From NCBI RefSeq assembly GCF_032118995.1, contig NC_092651.1, positions 21,684,349 through 21,748,348 on the forward strand: DNA of 64,000 nucleotides, written 5' to 3'. Source of the stretch: Asterias amurensis (Eukaryota > Echinodermata > Asteroidea > Forcipulatida > Asteriidae). Shown one piece after another: positions 18,243 to 38,500 of this stretch. The translations under genes and the position numbers were made by a program. The stretch's first letter is position 1, and each line of letters starts with the position of its first letter. The notes beneath the pieces were generated by a model. It searched no databases and had not been told where the DNA came from. It was given only the letters and a program-made list of their open reading frames with translations.

Positions 18243-18350
18243 GCAAACTAGCGAAATTTAAGTCAAATTCAGGCTCGACCTAAATTACTTCAACTACTGA
18301 CATACAAGTTATACAACAAAACTCCGCTTTCTGGTACAGCAAAATTATTA
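18243..18350 (-). pseudogene. Partial 'echo' of exon 7h
   Basis: Reads on the minus strand NFAVPESGVLLYNLY then VSS and a stop, the same as the end of exon 7h (NFTVPESGVLLYNLYFSS). It lies about 170 bp downstream of the real exon end and has no upstream half or acceptor. It is a tandem duplication of the exon's 3' end plus its 3' flank. Confidence 0.8.
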
Positions 18351-18453: not shown

Positions 18454-18714
18454 TTAACTACTGAAGTACAAATTATACAACAAAACCCCACTTTCTGGTA
18501 CAGTAAAATTATAATATTTGATTGTATCAAATACTCCAATAAATTTACCATGATCTAATGCGTCCTCAAACTCAAATCCAGGGTCAAAGGTAAAACCCAG
18601 CTCTTTCAGAGAAATGTTAACCGTTTTAGGTTTGGATCCTTTATTTAGAAACAGCAGGGCGTATTCTTCATAGCCAGCTAGTGTCCGAACCCATATTTCA
18701 ACCGTAGAGTTGCG
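18454..18714 (-). CDS. GH27-B alternative terminal exon 7h
   Basis: Minus strand; acceptor ...ttctatacatccag then 86 codons and TAA at 18456-18454. It begins RNSTVEIWVRTLAGYEEYA and ends VPESGVLLYNLYFSS. It has no early Met, so a Met-first ORF scan does not show it, yet the frame is fully open in the phase required after exon 6. It encodes the GH27 C-terminal beta domain and is the most diverged copy: it has DPGFEFEDALDHG where the others have the GYE-LRE-LTHK type. Joined to exons 1-6 it would give a 404-aa protein. Use is inferred from intactness. Confidence 0.8.
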   Translation of the reverse strand, partial: RNSTVEIWVRTLAGYEEYALLFLNKGSKPKTVNISLKELGFTFDPGFEFEDALDHGKFIGVFDTIKYYNFTVPESGVLLYNLYFSS

Positions 18715-18757
18715 CTGGATGTATAGAAAAATGAAAGAAGGTAAGTGGATCTAATAG

Positions 18758-18830
18758 TTGTGGATAAGACACTGCTCTAGAACTGCAAAGGTTGCGGGTT
18801 CGAATCCCACCTGAGTAATATGCCTGTGAT
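18758..18830 (+). repeat. tRNA-derived SINE fragment
   Basis: Contains a clear B box (GGTTCGAATCC) and GACACTGCTCTAGAA(C/T)TGCAAAGG, also found at 25100-25170. No plausible tRNA cloverleaf. Confidence 0.5.
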
Positions 18831-18835
18831 TGGCT

Positions 18836-18966
18836 TTAGCTGTGTCTGGATTGAGGAGCTTGGCTATGGCTGTGTCTGGATTGGATAGCTTTTGGCTATG
18901 GCCATGATGGCTGTGTCTGGATTGAGGAGCTTGGCTATGGCTGTGTCTGGATTGGATAGCTTTTGG
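18836..18966. repeat. Minisatellite: 'ggctgtgtctggattg' units
   Basis: Four copies of GGCTGTGTCTGGATTG alternately followed by 'aggagcttggctat' and 'gatagcttttgg', so the higher-order period is about 70 bp. In the intron between exons 7g and 7h. Confidence 0.8.
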
Positions 18967-20057
18967 CACTGGCTGTGTGTAGTTTGAGTGGTTTTGATAA
19001 CCACTACTGTAATGGTGTCCATAATGGCTATATGCCCAGGTTAAAAAAAAAATTATTAAATATTTCCAGAGCAGCCAACAGTAACATTAATAGCCCTGCA
19101 CAGGCAAGGCTTCACGCAATAGCAGCTGTAGCCAGAGCCATAAGCCATTGATCCCAACATTTTTAGCAGTGTCCATGTTGATGCTGCACATGATCACCAT
19201 TAATATGGATTGAAAACAGGGCACCAGTGAATTAAAGCAATGAAAGTATCAGTTTCTTACAGCACAGTGAATGATCAAGATGGCTGCTGGGGAAAATCTT
19301 TGAGAGTCAACTTGGAGACAAAGTGGAGTCAGTATTGTCACGAGAGTACTTTCTTTGAATCACAGGTAAAATGCTCATCTTAAATCCGCATGAAATGTGT
19401 TTTGATTTAGTTTTGATCAACTTCCTTTCAAAGATTTGTTTAATTCTTTAACGGCAACAAGCAGCTTATACCCAAACGCCCATAGTGGCCGCACCAAGGT
19501 TTGACCTAATTCCATTCACATAAAGATGTCAAAGTAAAGGTGGTGTCCAGGTGTCCTTTCTCTTTGGTCCAATGTAGTTTGTTAACATTATAAGTATCCC
19601 AATTTCTAAACACAAAACTAAGTTTTCTGTTTCAAGTTATTTATGTTTACATTTTTACTGACAAAATTTGGTTAACAGTAGTTGTAAGCATTGTCTAGGC
19701 ATTTTGTGATAGTTATACATAAATGAATGGTCTCCATAAAGGGTTTAAGGAACTCCTTTGAAATTTCTCATCTCGATCTTTAGGTTGCCAATTAAAGAGC
19801 ATAAAACTACAAAAGTAACAGTGCTAACATCACTGGCTAACACAAATCGGTGGTTGGGTAAAAACCAAATTTAATGTTCTTTATCCCCGATGCAAAATTT
19901 AACATCTCTTAATCTTTATTAGATCCCGAAAAGGGTTATTCAAAATTCAATTCATAAGCTGTGACTTGTAGTTCCAAAAATACGGTACTTTATTTTATTT
20001 TCTGATCCTCATTTGTTTGTAGATAAACCAAAGTCAGGACCTTCCATGGAGCTTTGT

Positions 20058-20315
20058 TTAACTACTGTCGTATAAATACAGCATGAGAGCTCCAGTCGCA
20101 GGTGCGGTGAAGTTGTAGACCTGGTAAGGACCTATATGACCAATCTCCTTATGATTTAAGACGTCTCGTAACTCGTACCCAATGTACGTTAGTCCGAGAT
20201 CTTTGAATCTTAGCGAAATAGTTTGAGGTTTTGTGTCGGTGTTGAGGATCACCACGGCCCATTCTCCGTTCTGGAAATTAAGTGCCCTCAGCCAGACTTG
20301 GACGAACTTTCCAAA
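20058..20315 (-). CDS. GH27-B alternative terminal exon 7g
   Basis: Minus strand; acceptor tggtgtttacag at 20316 onward; 85 codons and TAA. Starts FGKFVQVWLRALNF and ends FTAPATGALMLYLYDSS. An open frame continues upstream of the acceptor, but that part has no homology to GH27 and is intron. Belongs to the FG-type group with 7d, 7e and 7f. AATAAA signals on the minus strand lie about 70 bp downstream (plus-strand TTTATT near 19990). Would give a 403-aa isoform with exons 1-6. Confidence 0.85.
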   Translation of the reverse strand, partial: FGKFVQVWLRALNFQNGEWAVVILNTDTKPQTISLRFKDLGLTYIGYELRDVLNHKEIGHIGPYQVYNFTAPATGALMLYLYDSS

Positions 20316-20838
20316 CTGTAAACACCAAGAAACAAATGAAGGGCCTGGTAAGTCAACTTCCTCTGCAAGATTGGGGATTCGGATTTGAGAATCGCTGTAA
20401 GATGCTCGATAAGACAATAAGGAGTTGAGAGTGGGGAAGGTCATAAGTGAACTCTCCTATACAATTATTTTTCATTCTGTTTTATTTTTCATAACAAGCT
20501 TTGCAACAAAATAAATTTATTCCCAGTGTTCAAACATCATAAACATCAGAAACTTAAGAAATCACAATTATGAATCAATAAAAAAAACAGTCTTTACAAC
20601 TTTAATTTATTTTTAATGTTTTATCCATACACTGATGTATGTAAAATCACTTTCCCAATTCCTGTGAAGAAATTACACAGGTATTTTATCGGGTGGTATT
20701 CAAACTTTGCCATTAAAGAGCAGATGTAATACCACTAGACCACTGAGTTTAAATCCTATATTGTAATTTTGATAGCTCATGTTGTATTGCTCATTGTTTG
20801 AAAAAAAGATTAGTGTTTTTTTTCTTCAAATATTGTTT

Positions 20839-20925
20839 ATTCTAGTGGTAAGTAAGTGCCTTGAGGCTAATTGGCATAAGGCACTATATAAATTCTCTTT
20901 TATTATTATTATTATCTACATGATC
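20839..20925 (+). mobile_element. SINE tail fragment
   Basis: Has 'aagtgccttgaggc ... ggcactatataaatt' followed by (TTA)n, like the 3' ends of the family-A SINE. Truncated. Confidence 0.45.
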
Positions 20926-21117
20926 TATTTTTATATTTATTTTTTCCCAGGGAACCGTGTGGTCATCAATCACTTCACAAAGTCCATTGGTTTTAGACTC
21001 AATTAAGTTGCAAAAACCAGAAGTTCCAGTAACTGATCTATCAATTAGTCTTATTACCGTCTACTGGATAATTATACCAATATGAGATTCTACATAATTC
21101 TTCTAAAGTGTCATGAG

Positions 21118-21375
21118 TTAATAGGTAGGATAAGCGTAGAACATGAGTGCCCCATTGGCAGGGGCTGTGAAGTTGTATGATAACCGAATCCCAAGTTGCC
21201 CAATGTCCGTGTGGGTCAAGACCTCTCGTATGAAGTACCCCATATTGAAGGTGAACCCCAGATCACTGAATTTGAGAGACACCGTTTGGGGCTTTGTGTC
21301 TCGGTTGAGAATGACAACTCCCCATTCTTGCCAAAGAGTTAGAGGCCGAAGCCAGACGTCAACGGTTGTTCCAAA
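21118..21375 (-). CDS. GH27-B alternative terminal exon 7f
   Basis: Minus strand; acceptor gatttgcacacag; 85 codons and TAA. Starts FGTTVDVWLRPLTLW and ends FTAPANGALMFYAYPTY. Closest relative in the window is the broken copy 7c at 25272-25536 (both have DIGQLG and GYxIREVL). Encodes the C-terminal beta domain; would give a 403-aa isoform. Confidence 0.87.
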   Translation of the reverse strand, partial: FGTTVDVWLRPLTLWQEWGVVILNRDTKPQTVSLKFSDLGFTFNMGYFIREVLTHTDIGQLGIRLSYNFTAPANGALMFYAYPTY

Positions 21376-22213
21376 CTGTGTGCAAATCAAGCAAGAGGCA
21401 GGTTTACCTACTTATTCAATCCGCTTCAAGGACAACTGGAATTTTGAACCTAGTTGGGAAACCGGCTCAGCCAACTGAGCATAGTCAAAAGTAATTAAGC
21501 CCAGTTTATGTTTTAACTGGTTTCAACAAAAGGAAAACTGGAACTTCAAACCTATTTGGTGAACCTGAGCTTAATCCAGTTGAACATCAGAACATTATCA
21601 AAAGTAGTTTTTCAACTTTGACCCCAAAAAATTTCTACGGAAAAGGGAAGAATAGAACACTGGCAGGACCCCACAGACCCGATCCTTAAGGTTGTGCGTG
21701 TGCAGGATTTGGTGTGTGTGTGTTTTGGTGAATGAAAGATGAGTGACAAGATTTTGAATGCAGCTAGCTTGAATTGTAGTACCTTCCAAAAAGATTAAAA
21801 TAAACATTTTCCCAATCCATCGTTCTCACCATACGCGTGTGACCTAGGGGGAAGTGACAACTGACTTGCCAAATTTGGGCAAACCAGCGGAGGAAAATCG
21901 AGCACAGCAAGAAGAAAACAAAATGTGCAGAGAAAGCATAACAGACTCTTGACTCGATATTATAAATTTGTACTTATTTTTTAATTATTACTTTTATCTG
22001 TGAACAATTTCGGGTAAAACAATCCCTCTGCCCAAAAGAAATCCCCATACCCTCATATACACCTCATGTTCTGTTGGTATACCATGACTAAGCACCCCAG
22101 GTATGCAAATTATTCAAAATAATCGTAAAATCTGATGATTAAAATGTAAAAATTTTCTTCATTCTCTTTCTTGGACGTCTTCCTTTATAGGGAGAAGATT
22201 CACGACGATGAAT

Positions 22214-22468
22214 TTAACTACTGTTATAAGCGTGATACATGAGCGCCCCCAACGCAGGCACAGTGAAATTCAGCTCTTGATGCCTGTCCACATGACCGAC
22301 TTCCTTATGAGTCAATATCTCCCGTAGTTCGTAACCCATCATGTAAGAAAAACCTAACTGGCTCAGCTTAAGAGTGACTGTTTGGATCTTGGTGTCCTGG
22401 TTGAGGAACACAATCGCCCAGTCTTCAGAATATTGAAGAGGTCGCAGCCAGACTTCTACACTCCCGAA
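22214..22468 (-). CDS. GH27-B alternative terminal exon 7e
   Basis: Minus strand; acceptor ggtttccccccacag; 84 codons and stop. Starts FGSVEVWLRPLQYSEDW and ends FTVPALGALMYHAYNSS. It differs from 7d at four residues (Y/S, E/D, Y/H, D/N), so it is a recent duplicate that has kept its frame. It may lack a canonical AATAAA nearby: the position that is TTTATT (plus strand) after 7d near 23720 is CTTATT here near 21972. Would give a 402-aa isoform. Confidence 0.85.
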   Translation of the reverse strand, partial: FGSVEVWLRPLQYSEDWAIVFLNQDTKIQTVTLKLSQLGFSYMMGYELREILTHKEVGHVDRHQELNFTVPALGALMYHAYNSS

Positions 22469-22611
22469 CTGTGGGGGGAAACCAAGGAGTTGAAGCCGGT
22501 GGTAAGTGTGATAACAAGTCGCTTGTGTAACTTTTTGTTGTTGGTTCAGTTTCTATTTTGAAATGCTGGAAGCAATGTCCATTTATAATGCTGGAAGTAG
22601 TGTCAATCTAG

Positions 22612-22783
22612 AAAATACTGTCTAGCAAATTTCTTTGCTAAGCAAAAAATGAGTGGGGCACCATGACAGTTGCATTAATGTAAACTTTACACATAATTTT
22701 GGCCAGACCAGTGTCTGTTTAGCAAGATTTGTCTGTGCTCAGCAAGTTGTTATGCTTACAGACTTTATAAAATTGGGCCCTGG
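22612..22783. mobile_element. GGGCCC-ended MITE, partial
   Basis: Right end TTTATAAAATTGGGCCC and internal 'tttctttgctaagcaaaaaatgag'. A truncated second copy at 24471-24575 was carried along with the segmental duplication. Confidence 0.6.
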
Positions 22784-23335
22784 TCATTTTTGGTAGCCGA
22801 TAGACCCCTGGCATTGGCTGCCATCACTAATTTCACACATGGAAACATGCACATGTGTACGCACGGTGCACATTTCTCAGCCATTAATTGGTCTTTATTT
22901 ACCCCAGGGTGCTGGTTGGGTCTTGTGATTTCATATGGTTTATTTCTTGGCCCTGGTGGTTTATATGCAAGCTGCCAAGTATGACGGCTTTGTTTATAAA
23001 CCTCCCATGAAACTAACATGATACTATCATGGGATCATGGCGGGATTTAGAACGGGTTGTTTAGAGTGGTTTGCGTAATGTCTTTATCTGATACTTGACC
23101 ACCCTGCTTCCACGATGGTTAGTCAAACTGGGTGCTTTCAAAGAGTAAACCAGAAAATAGACCTTGGTACCTCAACACTGTTATTTAAAATTTGAAGAAA
23201 AAACCCACTTCGCTTACAGAATGATAGTTGATTTACAAATATATTTCTGACACTATTCTATCTCTTGATAGAATTTGAACTGCCTCTAGCTATACTGAGC
23301 AATCTCAAGAGTCTAGTTGGTTTGACACTGCTCTA

Positions 23336-23428
23336 GGTTTGTTATTTTGTTATTTTGTGCATATGTTGAGATACACCAAGTGAGAAGACTGGTCTTTTAC
23401 AATTACCGAAGGTGTCCAGTGTCTTTAA
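23336..23428 (+). mobile_element. TTAA MITE family 1, right-end fragment
   Basis: Matches the last 90 bp of family 1 ('gatacaccaagtgagaagac ... gtgtccagtgtctttaa'). The left part is missing. Confidence 0.75.
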
Positions 23429-23429
23429 G

Positions 23430-24575
23430 GTTGTGCGTGTGCAGGATTTGGTGTGTGTGTGTTTTGTGAGTGGAAAATGCATGACAAGATTTGGAATGCT
23501 TGAGTTGAACCAAAAAAAGGAAAGGTGGAATTTCTGAGTTACACTTCGAACCCAATTCGAGGTCCAATTTTATCTTTCCACTTACAAGGTACAAGTACTT
23601 TCAAAAATTTCCAATGGAGGGGAGAGTGATTGGGTCAACTGCCCTCTCAAATTTAGGCAAAACAGTGGAGAAACTTGGACTCGGCAAGAAGAAAACGAAA
23701 TGGACAGAGAAACAAGCATTTATTTTTACTGGATATTAGAAATGTGTTTGTGTGTTTTAACCACAGAGCTATATAATGGTTTTAACCTATGTATATTTCA
23801 GGCAAATCGACCCCCCCCCCTTATCCAAGAGATTTACCTACGCCCAATTGCTTCTAATGTTGTGTAAATATACTGAGACCACAAGCACCACAGATATGTA
23901 AATTATTTATGATAATCGTAAATTCTGACGATTAATAATAAATTGTCTTCATTCTCTTTCTTGGACGTCTTCCTTTATAGGGAGAAGATTCTCGATGATG
24001 AATTTAACTACTGTCATAAGCGTAATACATGAGCGCCCCCAACGCAGGCACAGTGAAATTCAGCTCTTGATGCCTGTCCACATGACCGACTTCCTTATGA
24101 GTCAAGATCTCTCGTAGTTCGTATCCCATCATGTAAGAAAAACCCAACTGGCTCAGCTTAAGAGTGACTGTTTGGATCTTGGTGTCCTGGTTGAGGAACA
24201 CTATCGCCCACTCTTCATAATATTGAAGAGGTCGCAGCCAGACTTCTACACTCCCGAACTGTGGATGGAAAATCAAGGAGACGAAGCCGGTGGTAAGTGT
24301 GATAACAAGTCGCTCATGTAACTTTTTGTTGTTCAGTTCCTATTTTGACATGTTGGAAGCAAGTCGCTTGTGTAACTTTTTGTTGTTGTTCAGTTTCTAT
24401 TTTGAAATGCTGGAAGCAATGTCCATCTAGAATGCTGGAAGTAGTGTCAATCTAGAAAATACTGTCTAGCAAATTTCTTTGCTAAGCAAAAAATGAGTGG
24501 GGCACCATGACAGTTATAGCAAGATTTTTCTGTGCTCAGCAAGTTTCTATGCTTACAGACTTTACAAATTGGGTG
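23430..24575. repeat. Segmental duplication, unit 2 (carries exon 7d)
   Basis: Partner of 21690-22783. A further short tandem duplication ('aagtcgcttgtgtaactttt' repeated near 24308 and 24361) is private to this unit. Confidence 0.85.
24004..24258 (-). CDS. GH27-B alternative terminal exon 7d
   Basis: Minus strand; acceptor gattttccatccacag; 84 codons and stop. Starts FGSVEVWLRPLQYYEEW, middle GYELREILTHKEVGH, end FTVPALGALMYYAYDSS. Minus-strand AATAAA is available downstream (plus-strand TTTATT near 23720). Encodes the C-terminal beta domain; would give a 402-aa isoform with exons 1-6. Confidence 0.87.
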   Translation of the reverse strand, partial: FGSVEVWLRPLQYYEEWAIVFLNQDTKIQTVTLKLSQLGFSYMMGYELREILTHKEVGHVDRHQELNFTVPALGALMYYAYDSS

Positions 24576-24638
24576 CTTTCACAGAGTAAACATGAGAATA
24601 GACCTTGGTACCTCTTTGCTTACATACTGATAGTTGAT

Positions 24639-25028
24639 TTAAAGGAACACGTTGCCTTGGATTGGACGAGTTGGTCAAAACAAAAGCGTTTGTAACCGTT
24701 TTTTATAAAATGCATATGGTTGGAAAGATGTTTTAAAAGTAGAATACAATGATCCACACAAGTTTGCCTCGAAATTGCGTGGTTTTCCTTCTACTGTGCG
24801 AACTAACATGGTCGGCCATTTATGGGAGTCAAAATTTTGACCCCCATAAATGGCCGACGTGTTAGTCGACAAGGTAAAAGGAAAACCACGCAATTTTGAG
24901 GCATGTTTGTGTGGATCATTGTATTCTACTTTTACAACATCTTTCTACCCATATGCATTTTATAAAAAACGGTTACAAACGCTTTTCAAAGACCAACTCG
25001 ACCGATCCAAGGCAACGTGTTCCTTTAA
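24639..25028. mobile_element. TTAA MITE family 2, copy 2
   Basis: TTAA at 24639-24642 and 25025-25028, ends AGGAACACGTTGCCTTGGAT type, palindromic centre around GGCCATTTATGGG. Lies between exons 7c and 7d. Confidence 0.85.
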
Positions 25029-25094
25029 ATATACATTTCTGACACTTATTCTCTTGATAGAATTTGAACTGCCTCTAGCTACCGCGCAATCTCA

Positions 25095-25170
25095 GTGGTC
25101 TAGTTAGTATGACACTGCTCTAGAATTGCAAAGGTCGTGAGTTTGAATCCCACCCGAGTAATATACCTGT
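25095..25170 (+). repeat. tRNA-derived SINE fragment
   Basis: Same sequence type as 18758-18830 (GACACTGCTCTAGAATTGCA and GTTTGAATCCCACC). Present beside two of the terminal exons, so it may have been duplicated with them. Confidence 0.5.
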
Positions 25171-25271
25171 GATTTTTTTTCACAGAACTCTGATAAAAAC
25201 CAAAATAAATATTCTTTATCCCCGATGCAAATTGAATATCTTTTAATCTTTTGTTATTTCTCAACAGGAAG

Positions 25272-25536
25272 TTAATTCACAAGATAAGCATAAAGCTGGA
25301 TAGCTCACGGTGCAGGGGCTGTGAAGTTGTACGGTAATTCAACTCCAAGTTGCCCAATGTCCATGTTGATCAAGACCTCTCTAATGATCAAGTACCCCAT
25401 CCCAAACGTGAACCCAAGACCTCTGAGTTTGAGAGACACCGTTCTATGCTTTGTGTCTTGGTTGAGAATGACAACGCCCCATTATTGCAAATAATGAGAC
25501 AGAGGCTTAAAGCCAAACATCAACAGAAGTACTAAA
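25272..25536 (-). pseudogene. GH27-B terminal exon 7c, broken copy
   Basis: Minus strand. Acceptor (ttgatcacag) and start FSTSVDVWL are present, but the frame is lost just after, at the position of WLRPL, and must shift to continue. Further in, a TAA replaces the Glu codon before WGVVILNQDTK, one extra Ile codon sits in GYLIIREVL, and a TGA interrupts FTAPAP. The rest (LGFTFGMGY, DIGQLGVELPYNFTAPA) is clearly 7f-like. This is a dead sister of 7f and a useful neutral control for the intact copies. Confidence 0.88.
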
Positions 25537-25767
25537 CTGTGATCAAACCAGGGGAGAATCTATTGGTAAGTTGACATCTGTTTCTCAGAATCCTAGAGAA
25601 GACTTTTTATTCTCTCTCTCCCCCCCCCCCCCCCCCCCCCTTAGTCATCATAACCATGGCCTTCCTAACATCCATTGAGCTCAAGTCAAAATGATTTTTG
25701 TTGGCTATTCATCTTGGCTATTCATGGTTTATTTTGTCAAAAAAGAAACAACAAATCCTGGTGATTC

Positions 25768-25858
25768 AAAGAGACTCTTTGTTCTCTTGGCTTTGTTAAG
25801 AGACTCTTTGTTCTCTTGGCTTTGTTAAGAGACTCTTTGTTCTCTTGGCTTTGTTAAG
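25768..25858. repeat. 29-bp tandem repeat, three copies
   Basis: GAGACTCTTTGTTCTCTTGG plus CTTTGTTAA repeated three times without change, so recent. Confidence 0.9.
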
Positions 25859-26506
25859 ACATGGTTTTCTTAGTGCCTCTCAAAAACAAAATAATTCCAG
25901 CTATTCCGAGAATGATAATCTCATCAGTGAGAAAGGGAAAAATGTAAGATCTCTGGCATTTAATTGGCTACATGTAACTGCTTATCATAATTGAAATGAC
26001 AGTTGCATGCATTTGTGCCTTGTTAAAGTTGGCAATACTTTTGTGACATAAACAAATTAAATTTTTCTCAACAAATATTCTTGTCAATTGTACAAATGAG
26101 TTACGCTGCAAAATGAGTTGCTGATGAGTGCTTTGATGAGAAGTGGCATGAGTTATGAAAGATGAGAAGTTTGATGTAAAATGAAAATTAGTAGTTTGAA
26201 TTTATCAGGAGGGACTGACAGACGCTTGGTAGTGACAAAGAAAACATGTTAGAAAGAACTGGCTGCTGGCATTGGGCATTGGCAGCAATATTGAATAAGT
26301 CTAACTTAGTTTGTTATTAAGGTTCGTCGATAACGTTATGGATATTTAAACTGGTTCCAACATGTAGATGTGGTAGACAGTGGGAAGACAAAGTAAATGG
26401 TGAAATCAAAAAATAAAGACTTGACTATCAAATTAGCATGGGTGTATTAAGTCAAACTCAGTTTAACTTGGTTTTCGATGTCGTCATTCAAGATGCAAAA
26501 ATTTCA

Positions 26507-26665
26507 GAGATACAAGATCCTTGATCCAAAGATACAAGATCTTTGATCCCTGATCCATAGTTACAAGATCATTGATCCTTGATTTCGGAAAAAGATTTTT
26601 GAACCACAAATACAAAATCCTTGATCCCGAGATTCAAGATCCTTGATCCAAAGATCAAAGATGCA
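26507..26665. repeat. Degenerate tandem array of 'acaagatccttgatcc'
   Basis: About seven imperfect units of roughly 20 bp built on AAGATCCTTGATCC, itself close to a palindrome. Confidence 0.7.
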
Positions 26666-28163
26666 TACAAAAACACAACTTCAAGTCATCATAAATTAAA
26701 AAGTACATTTTTTATTACTGAACCAACACCAAATTTAAAGGCATTTATCAAATTGGAATGTGACAGAAGGAATGAACACTCACTAAACCTAGACTGACGG
26801 AATGAAAACTAACCAATCTAAAAATTAAACATATAATAGACCACTGTACTGCTGGTATTACAGTTTGCTTACTGCAAGAATAAGTACTGTAACTGTGTAC
26901 TGAATTTCAGACAATTGAGCAGAGACACACAATGGCCTCCCATTTTTCTGCAAAATGGTAAACAACCTGTGACGTCATCAGTACTAAGATCTATGAAGAG
27001 TAATACTCTAAAATAAAACCTGTACATAAACAAGATTTACATAGTTACTGGTATAAAACTTAGATAATTCTATTGTTGGTTTTTTGTTAATATTTTCCCC
27101 AGATACAGACAACAACAGAAATGTTGTTTACCATTTTCTTAGATGTGGGATCCGTGGTAATCGAGCCATTTTGAATTCCAAACAATCTCTCATTTTGAAA
27201 AAAGATGATGAGAGGAAAGAAAGCTTAACATCTAAGATGTGTGCTTTTATTATCTGATCTCATTCGATATCAGACTTTCCTCCATTTTTGAAGCTTTGGA
27301 TCCCGTGGATAATAATAAACACGGGAGTACACCCATGTTAACTGTTTAACAATACGTGGTTGTACCTGCAAGTTTACAAGCTATACATTTTGTAGTGTTC
27401 CCATATCTGTCACTAAGGATATTGAAGGATTTCATTCAGCACTTTTGCATCTAGCAAATATTTTGACTGAATGTCAATATTGGGTAGCATATGATGATTT
27501 TTGAATAGCAACTAATATAATTTACGTAGCAATTTTCTATGCTACAAGAGAACTGTTGTTACCTGAATTGTATGTGTAGTGTATGTGGTTTTATTCCTTG
27601 AAGGAACATCATAAGTCACATCATTTTTATTTCATTCTTCTTTCAAAGATAATCATTAATTTTTGAGCAGTTTTCTTTCTAAATTAAGGCACTTCTGGAT
27701 TATATAACGCCCAATGGGAACAGCTTAGTGCCATGTGGGCCTATGAGCATCCCATGTCCTGATAAAAATCTCCCAAATCTACTGTTTAACAAATATTTGT
27801 CTAAACATTAACGATAGCGTAAACTATTATTTCCAAAAATCTCCAAAAAGGAGCTAGTAAAAAACAGATTTTAAAGTCATCATGTTGATGACGACTCGCC
27901 TTTCAACAACATGGCAGCACCCAAAACTATTCTTTATTAATTGTAATTAAACTTTAATTAAAAGAAATAAAAACATTTCATTTAGTAGACAAATCTGTTG
28001 CTGCTTAGTCTCCAAATGTGTATTAATTCTATAGTATTTGAGGGAAACTTAATTCTAGTTCTTCTGATGGTTGCTCAAAGAGCCCCCGAACAGACTTTCC
28101 TCCACATACTGCATGTCTTTAAAACACGCATTCTATTTTTATTTGCTATTTCTTTCCTTTCTC

Positions 28164-28425
28164 TTTGTGGCGTGTCATGGCCGAGTGGTTTAGAGCACAC
28201 GTAAAATTGGGGAGGTAGTGCTTTCTGCTCTACCGGCCAGGTTTCGGACTGATGATACCCAAGCCTACATCCGTATGGACTGTAAAAGGGGTAACCCTGT
28301 TTCAGCCCTAGGAGTAGCTGGCAACGGCCTCTGGAAAAAAATAATTGTAGCCCACACCTTGAAGTGGCCTTCAGGCCTTGTGTGTCTGGCGACGTGCATA
28401 AAAAAGAGAGAAAAAAAGGTTTAAA
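28164..28425 (+). mobile_element. SINE (family B) with tRNA head
   Basis: Head TGTCATGGCCGAGTGGTTTA is the A-box end of a Leu/Ser-type tRNA; the body ('ctgatgatacccaagcctaca', 'ggtaaccctgtttcagccc') matches 44822-45030. The antisense open frame across it is a chance product of the repeat. Confidence 0.7.
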
Positions 28426-28651
28426 ACCTCCCAAAGACTTTGTACACACATTCCTTCACCGTCTTTAGAATCCTTTTTTCCTGTTCCTTTCTCAGTAGGT
28501 AGTGAATATCACATCACAATGGTCAACAGGCAACAATGAAATAATACATATTCTATAAAAACTGATATATTTTTCTAAATAACCACATTATTTTGAAGTG
28601 AAATACTTCTCAAAATGCTTTATACTATCGAAACCTGATGTACTTTTAACC

Positions 28652-29032
28652 CATAGAGCTATATATGTTGACTAGAGCGCTAACTTGCTCTGCACTTTGA
28701 AGCCACCCTGGGCGCAGACATGTTTGATGTGTTGCGTGAATTCGGAATTTTAAGAGAAAAAAGTAAACGCGCCCTTTAATCATGGCGCACAGGGTGCTCG
28801 CAGTTTGTGCGCTGATCAGCAGATTGTGCGTTTACATTTGCTGCATTCTTTGCTTCGATGACACACAAAAAAGAACAAACGCACTATCATGCAAATAGCC
28901 GTACAATTGCCGTACAAAATTTCAAGCTTTTGTATTGGTTTGTACATAAACATGGATGCGCCCACACGGCTTCAAAACCTTGGTGCGTGTATAACGGGGT
29001 GTTAGCGCTCTAGTCAATATATATAGCTCTAT
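28652..29032. mobile_element. Inverted-repeat MITE just after exon 7b
   Basis: About 33-bp inverted ends, left CATAGAGCTATATATGTTGA, right matching with two or three differences. 381 bp, non-coding. It ends 148 bp before the exon 7b stop in plus coordinates, i.e. it sits in the likely 3' UTR of that isoform. Confidence 0.85.
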
Positions 29033-29179
29033 GTTTTAACCAAAGTGTTTTATTGCTACCCTTAACTTTAACAGTGATTACCAATCATATACCTTCCCTT
29101 AAAAAAACTAATTAACTAATTAAATTAATTAGCTTTTGCCGAGTTGTTTAAGTAGATTCAGAGAGTTGTGAGAATTGAC

Positions 29180-29437
29180 TTATTGACTCGGGTATGCATA
29201 GTACATAAGAACTCCAACTGCAGGCACATTGTAGTTGTAGCTAGTGCTGATGTTGCGATGTCCAATCTGTGTGTTGGTCAGTACTTCTCGCATCTCATAC
29301 CCAGTCGAAGACTGGAACATTAGTTGTTTTAGTGACATTGGAACTGTAACTGGTTTGGTGGCGCTGTTTAGGAGCACAAAGGCCCACTCATCTGACACAG
29401 CTAGGGGTCGTACCCACACTGCAACTGTCGTTCCGAG
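29180..29437 (-). CDS. GH27-B alternative terminal exon 7b
   Basis: Minus strand; acceptor acttcctacaactag; 85 codons and TAA. Starts LGTTVAVWVRPLAV and ends VPAVGVLMYYAYPSQ. The middle (PMSLKQLMFQSSTGYEMREV) is distinct from the FG-type group. Minus-strand AATAAA is available about 130 bp downstream (plus-strand TTTATT near 29050). Would give a 403-aa isoform. Confidence 0.85.
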   Translation of the reverse strand, partial: LGTTVAVWVRPLAVSDEWAFVLLNSATKPVTVPMSLKQLMFQSSTGYEMREVLTNTQIGHRNISTSYNYNVPAVGVLMYYAYPSQ

Positions 29438-29498
29438 CTAGTTGTAGGAAGTAAAATGGAATGGGAAGCCCAGGCTAGTTTTGTTGCTTAGTTGAGAC

Positions 29499-29732
29499 TG
29501 GGCCAAATTTCAAAGAGCTTTTTGTAAAGCACAAAAAGTAGCTAAGCACAACTAAGTCATGCTTACCAGAATAAGGTTACCAGCCAAAATAATGCCACAT
29601 GTACAATCTGTGACTGGTTCCCTGTGTATTTGTGCCAAGCAAATGGCTGGTAAACCAGTTTCTGTTTTAAAAGTGAGATTTTTCTGTGCATAGCATATTT
29701 TTATGCTCACAGGCTTTATGAAATCGGGCCCA
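29499..29732. mobile_element. GGGCCC-ended MITE
   Basis: Left GGGCCAAATTTC and right TTTATGAAATCGGGCCC inverted ends; begins 62 bp upstream (in transcription sense) of the exon 7b acceptor. Confidence 0.65.
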
Positions 29733-30894
29733 GATTGGTCAAGTTTATTGACGCAACACCACATAGTTAATTCTTACTTTCTAAAAAAAGAAATTGAAAA
29801 CATTTTTCAAATAATTTGTGCCTTTGCAATTTTCACCATAATGGTAATAAATTCATCTTGTCTAATTTAAAAATAACCAAAAATAATATTTATTTTATTT
29901 AGGAGGTTCTAACAGTATTATTTCTCTCATTACTTCTCCAAGTTCTGACTCACTTTAATTCCAAAGGCGAGACACCCTGAAATTTTTTCAAAACCTTCCT
30001 TTATTTTTAAAAATTTCACAGCAACTATTATATTGGCATGCATTTTTTAAAGCAGTGTTAAAGCAGTGTTAGAGAGCTTCATTAATGCATTTAAGTTAAG
30101 TTCAGTTTCTGCAGAACAGATGCATTTGCCAGGCACAGCAAAACTTTGTAGTGTTTTTTCCCCCTTCAATTTCTATGCAACAGCTGAGAAAACACTTAAC
30201 CAAGGAAATCAGCTGATCATCTGAAAGTGTCATGTGTCCGATTGTAACAATATTTTGTTTGTAATTCACAGCTGTTTTATAAGAATAATTTCCATACAAT
30301 AATAATTTAAAATGCCAAGGATGTTTGTTCCATTGTGTTCAAATTGGAGCATCGATAGGTATCTTTAATAACAAAGTAATTTTCAAAATTAACCGAGTGT
30401 GTGTTTGAGTAATTTGCAGAATTAACCATTAATTTGTTTGTGTGTGAATCTGTGAAACTTACTTCCATTTTATAAAGTGATCTGTTAAATTCTGGCTTGT
30501 ATGTAAATCGTGCTTAGACTTTGTATTTAAAAGGGGCATTGTTATTGTTATATGTTTATCTCATGTTTTATCACTTAATGTCGTAAGAATCAGAATTTAC
30601 TTCAATTATGTGATACCCCCTCTGTTTCAATCCTTACCAATCTATGCTCTGACCTAATCAAAGTTGCAATAGAAATCATTTCTGACACAATTTTGTCCAG
30701 GTCAAACCTTAAATTTACACAGATTGAATAGAGTACTCATCTGTTGTCTAACCTTCCCACCCCACTTCTGTCCCTCTGCTTCATTATACATATCTGTTTT
30801 ATAACTCAGTATACGAATTTTGTATTAATATATCAAGGAAATTATAATACAAACCACAGCCATTATTGAAACCACATCTTAGGCTTCAACTTGT

Positions 30895-31255
30895 GGGGTG
30901 TCGTGGCCGAGCGGTTAAGAGCTCCGAATTCAAGCTCTGCTGATTCTGTTCAGCAGAGTTTGAGTTTGAATCCCGGTCGTGACACTTGTGTCCCTGAGCA
31001 AGACACTTAACTATTATTGCTTCTCTCCACCCAGGGGTAAATGGGTACCTGTGAGGGCAGAGTTGGTCCTTGTGATTGATTTAGCCGAGTAGCGCATTTG
31101 TTGCACGAGGCTGTATACTCCCCAGGGAGCTGAGATGGTTTAAGGAGTGAATTAAGTCCCAGTGACCAGGGGTAATATCTTGAAGCGCTTTGAGACACCC
31201 GTTCAGGAGTGAAAAAGCGCTATATCAAAACTCAATATTGATATTATTATATTAA
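30895..31255 (+). mobile_element. SINE (family A), full length
   Basis: tRNA-like head with A box GTCGTGGCCGAGCGGTTAAG and B box GTTTGAATCCC, body with 'ctgagcaagacacttaac', 'ggtaaatgggtacc', 'gtatactccccagggagc', tail 'gaaaaagcgctatatcaaaa' then an ATT-rich end. Head type is Leu/Ser tRNA. Fragments of this family lie at 11702-11999 (reverse), 37880-38015, 43605-43705, 45731-45795 (reverse) and 55155-55266 (reverse). Confidence 0.85.
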
Positions 31256-33347
31256 CTCCAGCATCATCATCCTGTTTTTAAAAAGTGGTATCCCTTATTA
31301 GATTAAAATTACGGGGCATAAAAAACTGTTTAACTTTTTACTTAATCATATTACTTTGAAATGAAATATTTCTCAAAATGCTTTATACTATTGAAAGCTG
31401 CTCTAGCTTTGTCTAGGCTTCTAACCAACGTGTTAGCTAGCGAGCCGTGCACGCCGTGTTAGCACGGCCAGTTGGGCTGAAAACACGGGCAAAAATTTGA
31501 TGCACGGCTTGGGTGAAGCCGTGCTGTCTAATAATTTCAGTGAAAATTACTGAACTTCTTTTATTATTTTGTTGTTGTTGAACAGTTTAAAAACAGCAGT
31601 GAGTAAAATTAGATTTGGTTTTACCAGATTTCCTTCTTCTTTTTGAATCAAAATTTCAACGACGCAACCATAAAACAATCGCTCGAAGTTGCCTCGAAAA
31701 CGCTGACCACATTGCGACCACACAAAACACAAGGCACAAACCACACATTACACAACGCACGTGCAAATTACATTACACAACGCAAGCGAGACACGCAGAC
31801 TTCGTTTCAACAGTCAGTCGTCGTCATCGACCGTCATCAGCAGGCAACATGAACTCCATGCACGCGTGGTATGATAGAGGCAAATTCACACGCGTTTTCG
31901 TTCAGATTATTTTAGGTACCAATCTCATCTCCACGATCCTACAAACCATCGCGCACTGGACTTTTCTACTATGACGTCAGTATCAGTAACTGAGTGACAC
32001 GCGGCGCAGTAAACCTTTTACCGCATACATTCTGCAGTTGCTTTGTAGATTGGTTCCGCAGTTTTTCCCAACTCGACGGCGGCAAACATGACGATCTTTT
32101 TTCCTTCTAGAAATTCAAGGGCACATCGTGTGTTCGTTGTAGAGTTTGTTTGAAACATCGAGACTTTTTTGGATTTCAATGTTTGCATCTCTTGGGTGTT
32201 AATGCAGTTGACAAAACGATGTTTATTTTCCGCTCAAAAGATTAAAAACTGGTTCATGTTTCTTTACAAATCTCAAATCGGTTTTGCTGTAGACCTCCCA
32301 AATTTATTTTTCAATCCATGGTACGTTTTTTGCCCAGTGGAACTACTTAAATGGCACTGTCTTTCGTAACTGTTTGTTCTTTATTCTCCGCAGACTGTTT
32401 ACAAATTGCCTTTGACCCAGTTTCAACAATTAAACAACCTATAAGACTTAAACTTTATGAAATTTAAACAAATACTAAGGAAAATATTAATTACCATAAT
32501 CAGTCAGTTTAAATTAAGCAAACAATTATGGTACATGTAAATCACTCTTGGCATTTTGATTGGCTGCAAATACTTGTGTGAATCATTATTTTACATTAAC
32601 TAATTGATTTGTTTAAAATAAATACAAAAACTATTATCAGCTTCTTGACCTTAGGCCTATAGTTCTGAAATCGAATGGACAAGAATGGATAGAAAATTTA
32701 CATTAGTAAATGATAACTCTTAATTTCTTCAATACCTCTTCATTTTTTTTAGTCTTTAAGCAAAAATTTGTATCAAGAGTAACACATGCCCAAAAATATT
32801 TTGTTGACAGCAAACTTGTACTGCATTATTTGTATCGCTTTTAAATCATTTCAGGCTAAATGGGTCCAAGCTCCATGGTCCAAGTAACTTAGCAGTGCTT
32901 TGAACTTGCCTAAATATTGACCCACAGAAACATTTTATACAGTTTAATAATGTATAGTGGACGTTGATCACGTTTACAATTTTCGAGTTGAAAACAAAAC
33001 AAAAATTAAGTCAATATAGTTTACTTGTAACAGAAATAGATACCACAAATGCATCAGAAACCACCAGAGAGCACCTTCAGTAGCCAGAGCTTCCAGGGCC
33101 CTTAAGGGGGGGGGGGGAGAGACAGACTTGGCGCTGCGCGCTCGTGTTGTGTGCTACGCACAATGTTTTTATTTTTTGTAGTGATTTTAGGTTGCACTCC
33201 CACTTTTTCAGTTTGCACTCCCACTTTCCAAATTCCTGGCTAAGACACTGCTTCTAACCAAGGGTTGTTATTTCCATTAATTGCACGAGTGATTACCAAA
33301 GGTAAACCTTCCCTTTAAGCTGCCCGTAGATAAAGCGCTGTATACAC

Positions 33348-33494
33348 ATTATAAGTTATCACACAAGCGCGAGTGGAATACGGAAAAATATAGCGCTTCT
33401 GCGTCCCATATCCAACGAGGCCGAGTTGGATATGGAACGCAGACGCGCTATATTTTTTCGTATTTCCACGAGCGCGCGTGTGATAACGTATTTA
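33348..33494. mobile_element. Foldback element, GC-rich hairpin
   Basis: Arms GTTATCACACAAGCGCGAGT and its approximate inverse meet near 33425, with inner blocks 'atatagcgcttctgcgtcc' and 'ggaacgcagacgcgctatat'. Confidence 0.75.
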
Positions 33495-33639
33495 TCTTCA
33501 AGCAAACTTGGTGCGTGACATAGAACACACAAGACGCATGTAGTGATATTAGCTGTGCAATATAGGTTTTTATCACCACTCCATTCTGCGAATCTGATTG
33601 GAGGATTAGCGTGTACTTGAAGATAATGGTGTCATATTG

Positions 33640-33880
33640 TATATAGATACATGTATTCAGAACAAATTTACAGACATTTAGAGGTCAATAAAATTAATTT
33701 ACTGCATTTCATTACTTTCATTTATTTCAACAAGCACAGCTCATTAATTGCCTGTATAAATATCCATTTACTATTGTATTTAAAGATATTCAGAACAAAT
33801 TTCCAGACATTTAGAGGTCAAATAATTGTATTTATTCATTTCCATAGACATAGATCATTATTTACTCATGGAGAAAGGGC
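33640..33880 (-). repeat. Two decayed 'echoes' of the 3' end of exon 7a
   Basis: 'ttcagaacaaatttccagac' plus 'atttagaggtc' occurs at about 33655, 33789 and 33977; the last is the flank of the real exon 7a. The middle copy still reads MIYVYGNE and a stop on the minus strand, like MIYAYGNE of exon 7a. Each lacks the upstream part of the exon. Confidence 0.8.
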
Positions 33881-34023
33881 TGTATAAGGGCTGTATGCAT
33901 AACGGCTGTACTTGTCCCGATGCAAATTTCCATCTATAAAGGCTGTATAAGTATTAATCTATTATTGTATTGAGATGTTCAGAACAAATTTCCAGACATT
34001 CAGAGGTCGACAATCAATTGTAT

Positions 34024-34281
34024 TTATTCGTTTCCATAAGCATAGATCATTAACACCCCATCGGCTGGCATTGTGTAATTATGAACTTCACCCGGAGTCC
34101 AATATCCGATAAACTTATGATTGATGATATCTCTCATCTGATACCCATAACCATACATCAAGCCAAGTTGTTCCAATTTGAGGGAGACGGTCTGAGATTG
34201 TGAATCTTGGTTCAGGAATAAGATTGCATAGCCCTCCCAGAAGTCAAGATGTTTTAACCACACCTCTGTCTTAGGTTTCAA
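34024..34281 (-). CDS. GH27-B alternative terminal exon 7a (nearest to exon 6)
   Basis: Minus strand; acceptor tttatttccaaacag; 85 codons, stop TAA. Starts LKPKTEVWLKHLDFWEGYA and ends MPADGVLMIYAYGNE. Only 1.26 kb after exon 6, so this is the default last exon. The stop lies inside AATAAA (GAATAAATA), a possible polyadenylation signal right at the stop, with another repeated downstream in the echo copies. With exons 1-6 gives 403 aa. Confidence 0.9.
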   Translation of the reverse strand: MKPKTEVWLKHLDFWEGYAILFLNQDSQSQTVSLKLEQLGLMYGYGYQMRDIINHKFIGYWTPGEVHNYTMPADGVLMIYAYGNE

Positions 34282-35543
34282 CTGTTTGGAAATAAAAGGA
34301 CAAAGGTGGGGCCTAAATGACTAGTACTAAGAGATAAAGGAACTATTGGTGGGGCCCAAATGACTTAATTTTAGAGGTACAGTGTAAGGGGCCTAATAAA
34401 GGACTGCTTTTGGAGGTAAAATGGCTAAACATTTTTGAGGACTTTAGAAAGGTATAAGTGAACTCATGAGACATTTAAGCAGTGTTGGATTTTAAAATAT
34501 TATTCCAAGCATGACTTCTTAAAGTGATTGTGTCTCCAGCTCATTTGTCTTTTTTTGTTTCATTTTTAGCAGCTCAATTTTGCAATGGGGGCAATTTTGA
34601 AATTGGAATTGAATTCAAACAGATTTGTTAAACTTTTGTGTCGTGAGGGGTTTACTATTTTTACAATAACTGTATAATTTATTTTACAGCAATGTTTAAA
34701 GATTGACAAGGATTTTTTTGTTTGGGGTTTAAGGGGGTGTTTAAGCAGGAAAACTTTATGAATGGAGTACGAGACTTTAATGTGAAAGGGTTTAATTGCT
34801 GGATGTGAACTTGTGTGGATGTGGATGAAAAACCAATCATTTTTTAATGATGTGTGGTGTGCGGTTTGCGGTTAAATGTATGATTAAGATTTTATGATGT
34901 GAAATGAATGATTTGATTTGATTTGACGGATTTTGTATATTGACAATGTTGAGTCTCTGGCCAGTTTGTTGCTGCTGGCTTTTGCGTTTTCCCCATATTT
35001 CTACTAACTTTGTTGTTCCGAGATTGCCCGGTAGCTAGAGGCAGTTCAAATCCTATGTTTTAGCAGCAGGTCTTGCACTGATATAAAAGATGTTAAATTT
35101 GCATTTGGGATAAAGAATTTTTAATTTTTTTTTTTTTTTTTGCAAGTTAACCATCTGTTGTAATTTTGTACTGTATTGATTCCATAAAACTGAATCCTGT
35201 AAAATAGTTAACCATTTTAGATTGAATAACTCATTTTAAATTTAAGGAGTTTATAATGGACCGTCTTAAAAGAGTTTAGCACTAGATGTTTATCAAGTAA
35301 TGGGAAAATGCAGATGCAAGGCACAAAGTTTTGAAGCATTTCTAAAAATGAGTCAAAGGTCATACACTATGAGACCCTCCAATGTTCATCTTGCTACACT
35401 TAAATCAAATATTTAAAAAAAATCCCTTTTTGAATGTTAAAAAGCAAACTCAAAACAACAAACTATACAGAGAAATGAGAATATGATTGAAGTGACAATC
35501 TGGAATGACCCATGATAAAAAAAAATTAAAAAAATTAACTTAC

Positions 35544-38500
35544 CTCCAACATTTTCTTTCCCATCTTGCCAGCTGGATCTTGGTTAATCCGGATGACTTC
35601 CTTGTTCAGTAAGATGTCTCTGTAGACAGGTTGGATATTGCGTAGATCGTTGGACATCAAGAGAGGAGCGGCGAAGATGGCCCACATAGCCATCTGAGCG
35701 TTAGACTGGTTCACATTCAACCCTTTGTTGCCAATAATTAACTGTAAGTAACATCAGTAAATATACTTTGTTTGTAAAATCAAAGAATAGAGATATGTTG
35801 CATTTAACTACTTGAGGTTGAGGCTACTTGAGGTTGAGGCTTAGGCTACTTGAGGTACGACTTGAGGGACTGGTTGAGGTACGATTGCAGGTTGAGGCCT
35901 AGCCTACTTGAGGTACTACTTGAGTTTGAGGCTTAGGCTACTTGAGGTACGACTTGAGGGACTGGTTGAGGTACGACTGCAGGTTGAGGCCTAGCCTACT
36001 TGAGGTACTACTTGAGTTTGAGGCTTAGGCTACTTGAGGTCTGACTTGAGGGACTGGTTGAGGTACGACTTCAGGTTGAGGCCTAACCTACTTGAGGTAC
36101 TACTTGAGGTTGAGGCTTAGAAAGTTGAAACTTGCTGGTCACTGCACCAGGAGGGAATTTTGAAACTTTTTTTTGTCGGAAAATTTCAAACATGAAGCCG
36201 TCACTTGGAAAAACCTACAAATTACTGGTAAATGCCAATGATAAGGCTCTAATTTGTTTTCAGTTACTGATGTACTAAAACCTGAACCTTGTTTTCCAGG
36301 GAAAATGCTGTAAGGTTTTAAGGCTACATAGCACATTAATCTGGAGGTCACATGTTAAAAACCTGTGCTATCATCTCTTTGTTCACCCCAAAATTTCATT
36401 ATAAATGTACCCAGTTAGTTTTCCCTCGTGGTTTATGACTTGTGAGATTTAAAGGATTTGGGTACCTTTACAAAATGTCCATAGATTTACATTAAACTTA
36501 CAGGGTTTGAAGATAATGATAGTGGAAAGCTTCCCTTCAAATTTTACTTACTGAGGTGCTGTAGTTTTTGAGAAATGAGTAAAACAATGTCATGAAAATA
36601 CGTTTGTAAATTATTAAAATAATTTTCGTCTCATGAGACGAAAACTATTTTCATGACATTGTTTTACTCATTTCCCAAAAACTACAGCACCTCAGCACGC
36701 AATATTTTCAGGGAAGCTTTCTACTATCATCATCTTCAAACTGGGTAAGTTTAGTGTAAATCTGCGGACATTGTGTTTTTTGTCCTACAAAAGTTACATA
36801 GACCCTTTAATACTCACCATATCTGGATCGTTGAAGTGTCCAGGACCAGCCACCGGGACAAGTGTCTTCTGATTGTCACCATAATACTTAATGATGCCTG
36901 TTACTGAATCCCAAGAGTCCTGAATGTCGTCGTAGTTACGCCAGATGTTACAGTTATCAGCCACTGAAGTGTAATTGATCTGAAATAAACCAATCAATCA
37001 AAACAATTTATATAGCTAAGTAGGATTTTTAACTAGACAAAGAATCTATTGCATAGAAAATGCTCTTGACTTGAGTACAAATGGGTTTTCAGTCTCTTTT
37101 TGAAAATTTTCACTTTTGGTGAAGTTTTAATGTCCATAGAGAGATCATATAAACATCAAAGAATCAAAGAAATTGAAATCAAAGAATTTTCCAGGACTCG
37201 AATTTCAGGGGGAAATGTACAAGACCACAGGGTCTGTAGCTCAAAATGTTTACAGAAACAACTTTCTTTTCACAAGCTCAGAATCAAAATGAGAAACAAA
37301 ATAATCAATCACAAACTGTTTTGGTTTGAACAAACACTTGAGAAGATCAATCTCATTTGTCTTATGGGTAAGTATTCTTTGATATTCAACAGAATTAAAA
37401 GATATTTATCAAATTTTAGGTAAAACTTTTATCACAAAATCGTCAGATTTGTCCAGTTGTGAGTGAGTTTAGCAGCTTTATGAAATTTGGGTCAGGGCTT
37501 TCTTCCTTACAGGTATATGTGAAGCTCGTTCATAGTCTGGCCAGCTGCAGGAAAAGAGAATTGGACGGCCGGTAGCGTTCAAGTATTTAGTCATCTCTGG
37601 GTATCCTGGAGGAATTACAAAGAATTGGTTGAAATTTAAAAAAGGGAAGAAAAAGTTGTGATTGCTAACTGACGAAAAATTATCTGTGGTACAGACGATG
37701 GTAGAAAAAAAAAGTAAAACTTACAAAATAAACCCACACATTTTTGAGAATGACTCCGCTAACGTCAAATCATGAGACAATCAAGTTTTTTGTTTTTTTT
37801 GCCCTCATACCAATGTGTACTAAGTCCTGAATTACATGTATGAAAAAGCTAGTGCCATACGGCAGCTCAGGACTGTATTATACTTGCAAGGGAGCTGAGA
37901 AAGATTAAAGGAATGTTTTTGGCCCAAGGTCCAGGGTACTAATTATGTAATGTGCATTGAGACCTTATTATGAATTGCGCTACATAAGAACTAACTAGTT
38001 ATTATTATAATTATTCAGATACAACACTACCCAAAGGAGATTTACACCAAGTGCATCCGCAAACCTCACCTCAAGATTTGAAAAACTATCGGATAATTTT
38101 GAATCTCCAAGGAAAGTGTTACCTGTCTTCATGGTTGATACATTAGAATAACATCCATCGAGTTTCAGACTGTCCACACCCCAGCTGGCAAACGTCTGGG
38201 CATCAAGCTCAAGATGATTCAAGCTGCCTGGGTATCCACCACATGTCTTGGTTCCGTAATCACCGTAGATACCAAACTTAAGACCTCTGCTGTGGACCTG
38301 AACAAGATGAAGAGGAAATGATTAAGAATTCTCTTGGCCTGATACTTCAAGGAGGCAACGCAGGCGATTGCTTCCATGCCCCTTGGTCATTGCCTTGGTG
38401 CCCTTGAAAGCTTCAGGAGAAATTTACAATTTCCTCAAAGGGTACCCTTTACCAAGAAGAAAATGCCTTGGTTTCCTTGCACTTTAAAGAACAAAGCATA

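Follow-up and report, generated by a model that had tools for sequence, protein, structure and literature searches.

A starfish alpha-N-acetylgalactosaminidase-like gene with an array of seven putative alternative last exons

The starfish Asterias amurensis carries, in a stretch of 64,000 nucleotides of contig NC_092651.1 (positions 21,684,349 to 21,748,348; hereafter the window), a GH27 gene, GH27-B, in which exons 1 to 6 are followed on the same strand by eight copies of exon 7, seven of them intact. We consider it very probable that GH27-B is one gene of the alpha-N-acetylgalactosaminidase type (NAGA-like) that joins its exon 6 donor to any of seven last exons. The donor at 35543, at the end of exon 6, would be spliced to any one of the intact copies, and each would bring nearly a whole beta-sandwich, its own stop and its own 3' untranslated region (UTR). 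Choice of acceptor and polyadenylation (poly(A)) site would thus give one catalytic barrel different tails. This is the best-supported reading because it is backed by exact models for ends 7b and 7f, by models with orthologues of 7a, 7b, 7d and 7h, by a contig of the size of a complementary DNA (cDNA), and by purifying constraint on the copies.

The anatomy of the core and its array is confirmed. The core lies intact on the minus strand between 40408 and 35544, with GT/AG splice sites and 318 codons. Exon 1 (40260..40408) encodes the signal peptide and the mature N-terminus; exon 2 (38965..39139) is followed by exon 3 (38123..38297), which contains KLDGC, the catalytic nucleophile motif according to the accessible text of PMC5445309. 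Exon 4 (37511..37605) carries the recognition loop SCSWPDY, and exons 5 (36818..36979) and 6 (35544..35741) complete the core. Exon 6 ends in phase 0 at the donor TTGGAG/GTAAGT (boundary 35544/35543), which is common to all last exons. Intron 5 contains a tandem repeat (35824-36120; 92-base unit, 3.2 copies, 96% matches).

The first-pass annotation, made from the letters of the window, had placed eight exon 7 copies 3' of exon 6 on the same strand, and each position holds, with AG preceding every acceptor. Translation of each copy likewise upheld its claim that seven are open for 84-86 codons from a phase-0 acceptor to a stop. On the minus strand, these are 7a (34024..34281), 7b (29180..29437), 7f (21118..21375) and 7g (20058..20315) with 85 codons each, 7d (24004..24258) and its recent duplicate 7e (22214..22468) with 84, and 7h (18454..18714) with 86. 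The remaining copy, 7c (25270..25536), is broken: its frame closes after 9 codons, and compared with 7f it carries an insertion that shifts the frame. Shortly downstream of 7h lies a fragment of a ninth copy (18293..18346, minus strand), 18 residues of a last exon like 7h. The intact copies match one another with tblastn E-values of ~1e-13 to 1e-53, far above chance. One donor, several acceptors of the same phase and a stop in every exon are the arrangement of alternative last exons. The array does not fit mutually exclusive internal exons with docking-selector RNA pairing, which need a common exon after them: every copy closes with a stop, and the models go no further. Whole-gene duplication with loss of exons 1-6 was also rejected: as the first-pass annotation had held, no exon 1-6 remnant was found in the array, and a tblastn search of the window with the core (E up to 0.01) matched only GH27 genes A, B and C, with nothing at 16.4-35.5 kb.

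Models that join the core to different tails are available in several starfish. In A. amurensis, two isoforms match the GH27-B core exactly, X2 with 7b as its end and X5 with 7f, and the ends are exact as well (85/85 residues each). The related A. rubens has a model, X4, that ends in 7d (84/84) and another, X5, that ends in 7b (82/85). Patiria miniata isoforms X3 and X1 have no core differences and end in orthologues of 7a (66/85 residues, clade support 100/99) and 7h (55/86), respectively, and Acanthaster X2 is the core with a 7h orthologue (53/86; clade of the 7h type 100/100). All eight asteroid models with array-type ends (P0001-P0008) carry the full core. Extra isoforms at NCBI usually need transcript support. 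In addition, P0006 is a complete protein of 403 residues on an NCBI contig of 2,205 bases, with an asteriid-like core (276/302, 91%) and a 7d-like end (76/84). This contig is probably a cDNA because the exons, which from exon 1 to 7d span more than 16 kb in the window, would not fit unspliced into 2,205 bases; it may instead be a retrocopy. An assembly error, which the first-pass annotation had named as a way in which its reading could fail, is unlikely in a form peculiar to the A. amurensis genome, given that A. rubens has models with orthologous ends on a different contig.

The intact copies have also long been kept by selection as protein-coding sequence. The first-pass annotation had proposed, as a check, to compare the exons among themselves and with 7c. 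In 20 of the 21 pairs of open copies, the proportion of synonymous differences (0.70-0.90, at or near saturation) greatly exceeds that of nonsynonymous differences (0.25-0.42). The remaining pair, 7d/7e, is young, with 5 synonymous and 4 nonsynonymous changes (p 0.024), and its identity falls from 96.5% in the exon to 88.6% over the 400 bases upstream and 75.3% over the 700 bases downstream (gaps excluded). Differences between 7f and 7g by codon position (21, 21, 49) show a third-position excess, while those between the broken 7c and its nearest copy, 7f, are almost evenly spread (20, 15, 24). In IQ-TREE, the model MGK was preferred over MGK{1.0} by 71.8 log units, which favors constraint, although omega was not printed and the fixed parameter is unverified. 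Across the seven copies, 13 of the 87 columns of the tail alignment are invariant. The pattern is that of purifying constraint, and for copies that lack their own exons 1-6 splicing to GH27-B offers the simple route to it.

Each intact copy is predicted to encode nearly the whole C-terminal beta-sandwich domain, in line with the statement of the first-pass annotation that the last exon supplies this domain. The core matches the catalytic domain Melibiase_2 (PF16499) with 484.7 bits, which together with the C-terminal beta-sandwich fits the NAGA type of GH27. The Pfam scan of ends covered 7b, 7d, 7f, 7g, the window 7h and the Patiria ends (window 7a and 7e being left out), and PF17801 (Melibiase_C, the C-terminal beta-sandwich) scored above its cut-off with the first five; the 7a-type end of Patiria X3 reached 21.5 against a cut-off of 22.9, and Patiria X1 (7h type) was unlisted. 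AlphaFold2 models of the A. amurensis core with 7f (mean predicted local distance difference test, pLDDT, 91.9; predicted template modeling score, pTM, 0.90) and of the Patiria core with its 7h-type tail (91.4 and 0.89) have the same tail of eight strands, the first of them beginning at residue 314, just within exon 6. In both tails pLDDT is at least 93 per ten residues, the last few excepted. A structure search, run with the Patiria 7h-type model only, matched its entire chain to human NAGA (4do4) and chicken NAGA (1ktb) (template modeling score 0.92, root-mean-square deviation 1.5), and sequence matches were to chicken 1ktb and human 3h53. The core and tail combinations thus look like complete enzymes, because the models fold and the 7h-type model matches NAGA.

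In the recognition loop of NAGA the residues S172 and A175 (PMC5445309 numbering) stand out, and the Ala is held to define NAGA specificity; SCSWPDY retains the Ser and has Asp in place of the Ala. All 25 proteins of alignment A3 share this Asp; A3 excluded gene C, where the loop differs from SCSWPDY.

Some observations weigh against the use of all seven exons. In a database clustered at 90%, in which close isoforms may be hidden, asteroid models cover five of the seven tail types and none was seen with 7e or 7g; those of A. amurensis itself show two ends only, 7b and 7f. The joins are taken from automatic NCBI models and one cDNA-sized contig rather than from read-level junctions. A region-limited protein search with the 7g tail gave 25 candidates, none significant, which is probably a limit of word search because P0002, with a tail ~59% identical to 7g, was not returned; a third protein search brought 37 further proteins, none named as echinoderm. 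AATAAA or ATTAAA occurs within 450 nt after all seven stops, and these poly(A) signals carry no weight because 70% of random stretches here also have one. Per-exon ratios of nonsynonymous to synonymous rates are rough because synonymous sites are saturated. Third-position bias alone is no proof of present-day use, because 7c retains it when compared with 7d (30/23/51) and 7g (27/23/45), which are farther from it than 7f is; a late break would leave such a trace. Taken with the break in 7c (one copy of eight) and the ninth fragment, which show that decay occurs here, that old bias in 7c lends something to the view that the distal copies are unused, decaying tandem duplicates, that one copy is spliced and that the isoform models are annotation noise. 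We regard this view as very unlikely. It is opposed by frames that stayed open through saturating synonymous change, by the conservation of the 7d/7e exon above its flanks, by the retention of orthologous 7a and 7h since the Asterias-Patiria split, and by the exact models with 7b and 7f and the contig with a 7d-like end.

The 16 kb of the array would leave room for other transcription starts, and the distal exons could then belong to separate transcripts, with their own promoters or unseen upstream exons, that encode stand-alone beta-sandwich proteins. This is scarcely credible given that no copy opens with an ATG, each beginning at a phase-0 acceptor, that nothing between them matches exons 1-6, and that every model with such an end, P0001 to P0008, has the full core. 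A less remote alternative, which we still think rather unlikely, is that the tails are used and the domains are nearly neutral and interchangeable, with regulation or 3' UTR choice being what matters. The scaffold common to all copies, seen in the invariant columns, and the like folds of the two modeled tails would fit such a case. Differing roles are nevertheless favored by the separate persistence of tail types in several echinoderm classes and by the Patiria orthologues of both 7a and 7h. The proposal of the first-pass annotation that GH27-B swaps its C-terminal domain through last-exon choice is supported by database models, by the cDNA-sized contig and by constraint. A more varied enzyme surface, dimer contacts or glycan binding, the benefit that it named, may follow from such swapping. 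Going beyond the splicing itself, we infer that all seven tails are used, that their choice is regulated, and that they alter oligomer state, stability, location or glycan partners. Within that, we prefer the reading in which one digestive or lysosomal enzyme has its oligomer state, and its binding to glycans or partners, tuned by the tail.

Five of the eight array acceptors (7c, 7d, 7e, 7g and 7h) are preceded by the 7-mer ACTTACC, whose first base lies 32-40 bases upstream (at 25571, 24298, 22507, 20353 and 18746 on the minus strand). It precedes none of 17 other acceptors in genes A, B and C (p 0.001), although some few of these are approximately placed. It is probably a shared branch point (CTTAC). 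The 7-mer also complements the exon 6 donor G/GTAAGT exactly. Between 7c and 7d, at about 24650-25025 of the window, lies a foldback-like stretch: a sequence that begins with AAAGGAACACGTTGCCTTGGATCGG recurs as its near reverse complement, and by eye it resembles a small inverted-repeat element.

A whole-genome search found four GH27 loci: A (window 9.2-16.4 kb, plus strand), B, C (window 43.3-49.4 kb, plus strand) and D. The last of these lies at 1.61 Mb on C4, the contig that holds the window, and its recognition loop has the SCEW of alpha-galactosidase A. Last-exon-like places number 11 genome-wide, and eight of them are in the GH27-B array. Arrays downstream of A, C and D were considered and rejected, a single last exon having been found for each; D was queried with the array exons and the B core only, and its last-exon match had an E-value of 2.74 in one search and a clearer 2e-6 in another.

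The closest described architecture is that of insect serpin-1. As in GH27-B, constant upstream exons are followed by tandem alternative exons for the C-terminal part of the protein, and the accessible text of PMC5691223 gives 14 copies of exon 9 for Manduca sexta MsSRPN1 and, for Pteromalus PpSPI1, 16 putative isoforms that vary in exon 8. Serpin splicing is also treated in PMC12758981. In contrast to GH27-B, which would exchange nearly a whole domain of a catalytic enzyme as its last exon, serpin-1 swaps a short inhibitory loop region of a protease inhibitor. Drosophila lola and mod(mdg4) combine common 5' exons with one of many alternative 3' terminal exons; unlike GH27-B, they encode transcription factors and are partly trans-spliced. 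The vertebrate GH27 enzymes NAGA and GLA have the same catalytic core and C-terminal beta-sandwich as GH27-B, and to our knowledge their genes have a single last exon each. The first-pass annotation knew of no GH27 gene with such an array. This stands in so far as no description of GH27 tail swapping was found among the literature matches listed, mostly judged by title and the start of the abstract, and a term search for galactosaminidase gave zero occurrences in two A. amurensis genome papers; it needs amending in that the isoforms already exist as automatic NCBI models.

One of these enzymes may already have been purified. The accessible text of PMC5445309 reports two alpha-N-acetylgalactosaminidases (alpha-GalNAcases) from the digestive organ of a starfish named Asterina amurensis, a name that taxonomy keeps separate from Asterias; form II is monomeric and without alpha-galactosidase activity. 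Its N-terminus as given there is identical to that of mature GH27-B in 20 of 20 residues, and genes A, C and D differ; the N-terminus given for form I matched none of those of genes A, B, C and D. Among the internal residues listed in that text, F100 and F232 agree with GH27-B (F232 with a one-residue numbering shift), and E41, K78, Q163, G171 and A173 are absent from it. GH27-B is not fully equated with alpha-GalNAcase II because these five of the ten listed substitutions disagree. If the identity is true, which tail the purified enzyme carries becomes an answerable question.

Models with swapped ends occur well beyond starfish. Outside asteroids the evidence, including that from amphioxus, comes from protein models rather than genomic loci, in a survey of deuterostomes; isoforms from other animals, such as crustaceans, and the 37 later proteins (three of them hemichordate) lie outside it. 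The first-pass annotation had asked for the array in related echinoderm genomes, and models of several classes show orthologous or swapped ends. In the crinoid Antedon mediterranea, five isoform models share an identical core, and identity between their ends is only 20-59%. The brittle star Amphiura filiformis has six different ends among seven models, the sea cucumber Apostichopus two ends on cores 1 difference apart, and the Branchiostoma hybrid identical cores in X9 and X4 with ends 38% identical. In Amphiura, the exon 3 region also has two versions (P0010, P0016 and P0019 versus P0017, P0029, P0031 and P0034), which combine with like or unlike ends; an example is X18 and X8, in which the end is shared and the exon 3 region differs. 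On this comparison of models, the gene looks combinatorial in Amphiura, with the exon 3 region also alternative.

A tree of the ends suggests that this diversity is old, a point that goes beyond the first-pass annotation. Alignment rows numbered 55 (the seven array isoforms and 48 chosen from 120 listed proteins), of which 49 were used for the end tree, Lpic_X2 being too short and Aamu_X5, Aamu_X2, Arub_X4, Bhyb_X4 and Amph_X8 repeating ends, and 32 for the core tree. The ends of Antedon and of Amphiura are spread over several clades together with ends of other classes. In one of these (97/95) crinoid and brittle star ends stand with those of sea cucumber and sea urchin, and in another (97/94) with those of starfish and the hemichordate Glandiceps. 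The approximately unbiased (AU) test rejected a grouping of ends by species for Antedon (p 0.0007), Amphiura (p 1.8e-5) and Apostichopus (p 0.006). The seven array ends as a clade of their own were also rejected (p 1.2e-5), with ends of Patiria, Acanthaster, gene C and one from Amphiura falling among them. Deep branches of the end tree are uncertain because it has only 87 informative columns. The cores show a different pattern. In their tree, the 20 echinoderm cores form one clade (100/97), the starfish B cores form another (100/99), and starfish genes A, B and C come together weakly (78/90); its outer part is untrustworthy, because sponge and bird fall with amphioxus. The last exon of gene A, from an A. 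amurensis model, groups with canonical ends, and those of B and C (the latter from A. rubens and Patiria models) are of the type expanded in the array, as if the paralogues had divided up ancestral tails.

Because end types form cross-class clades and species grouping is rejected, tail choice probably predates crown echinoderms. The simplest reading of these trees would be an ancestral gene with several tails before the crinoid split, from which A kept the canonical tail and B kept and multiplied another. The crinoid split dates from about half a billion years ago. It is tempting to go further, and we do so tentatively, holding the idea to be somewhat short of an even chance: an alpha-N-acetylgalactosaminidase gene that swapped tails of three or more types, one of them also present in a hemichordate, would have existed in the ancestor of living echinoderms (amphioxus also swaps) and been kept for some 500 million years because its tails direct or tune one barrel to different glycans, partners or compartments, as a combinatorial enzyme system.

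If the reading of GH27-B as a gene with alternative last exons is true, it is a natural and long-lived domain-swapping enzyme gene, in which one active site is combined with many C-terminal domains picked at the RNA level. With its natural variants one could test directly what the C-terminal domain of GH27 enzymes does, a domain also present in the enzymes of human Fabry and Schindler disease. A further suggestion is that the choice of isoforms in a metabolic enzyme can predate the echinoderm classes.

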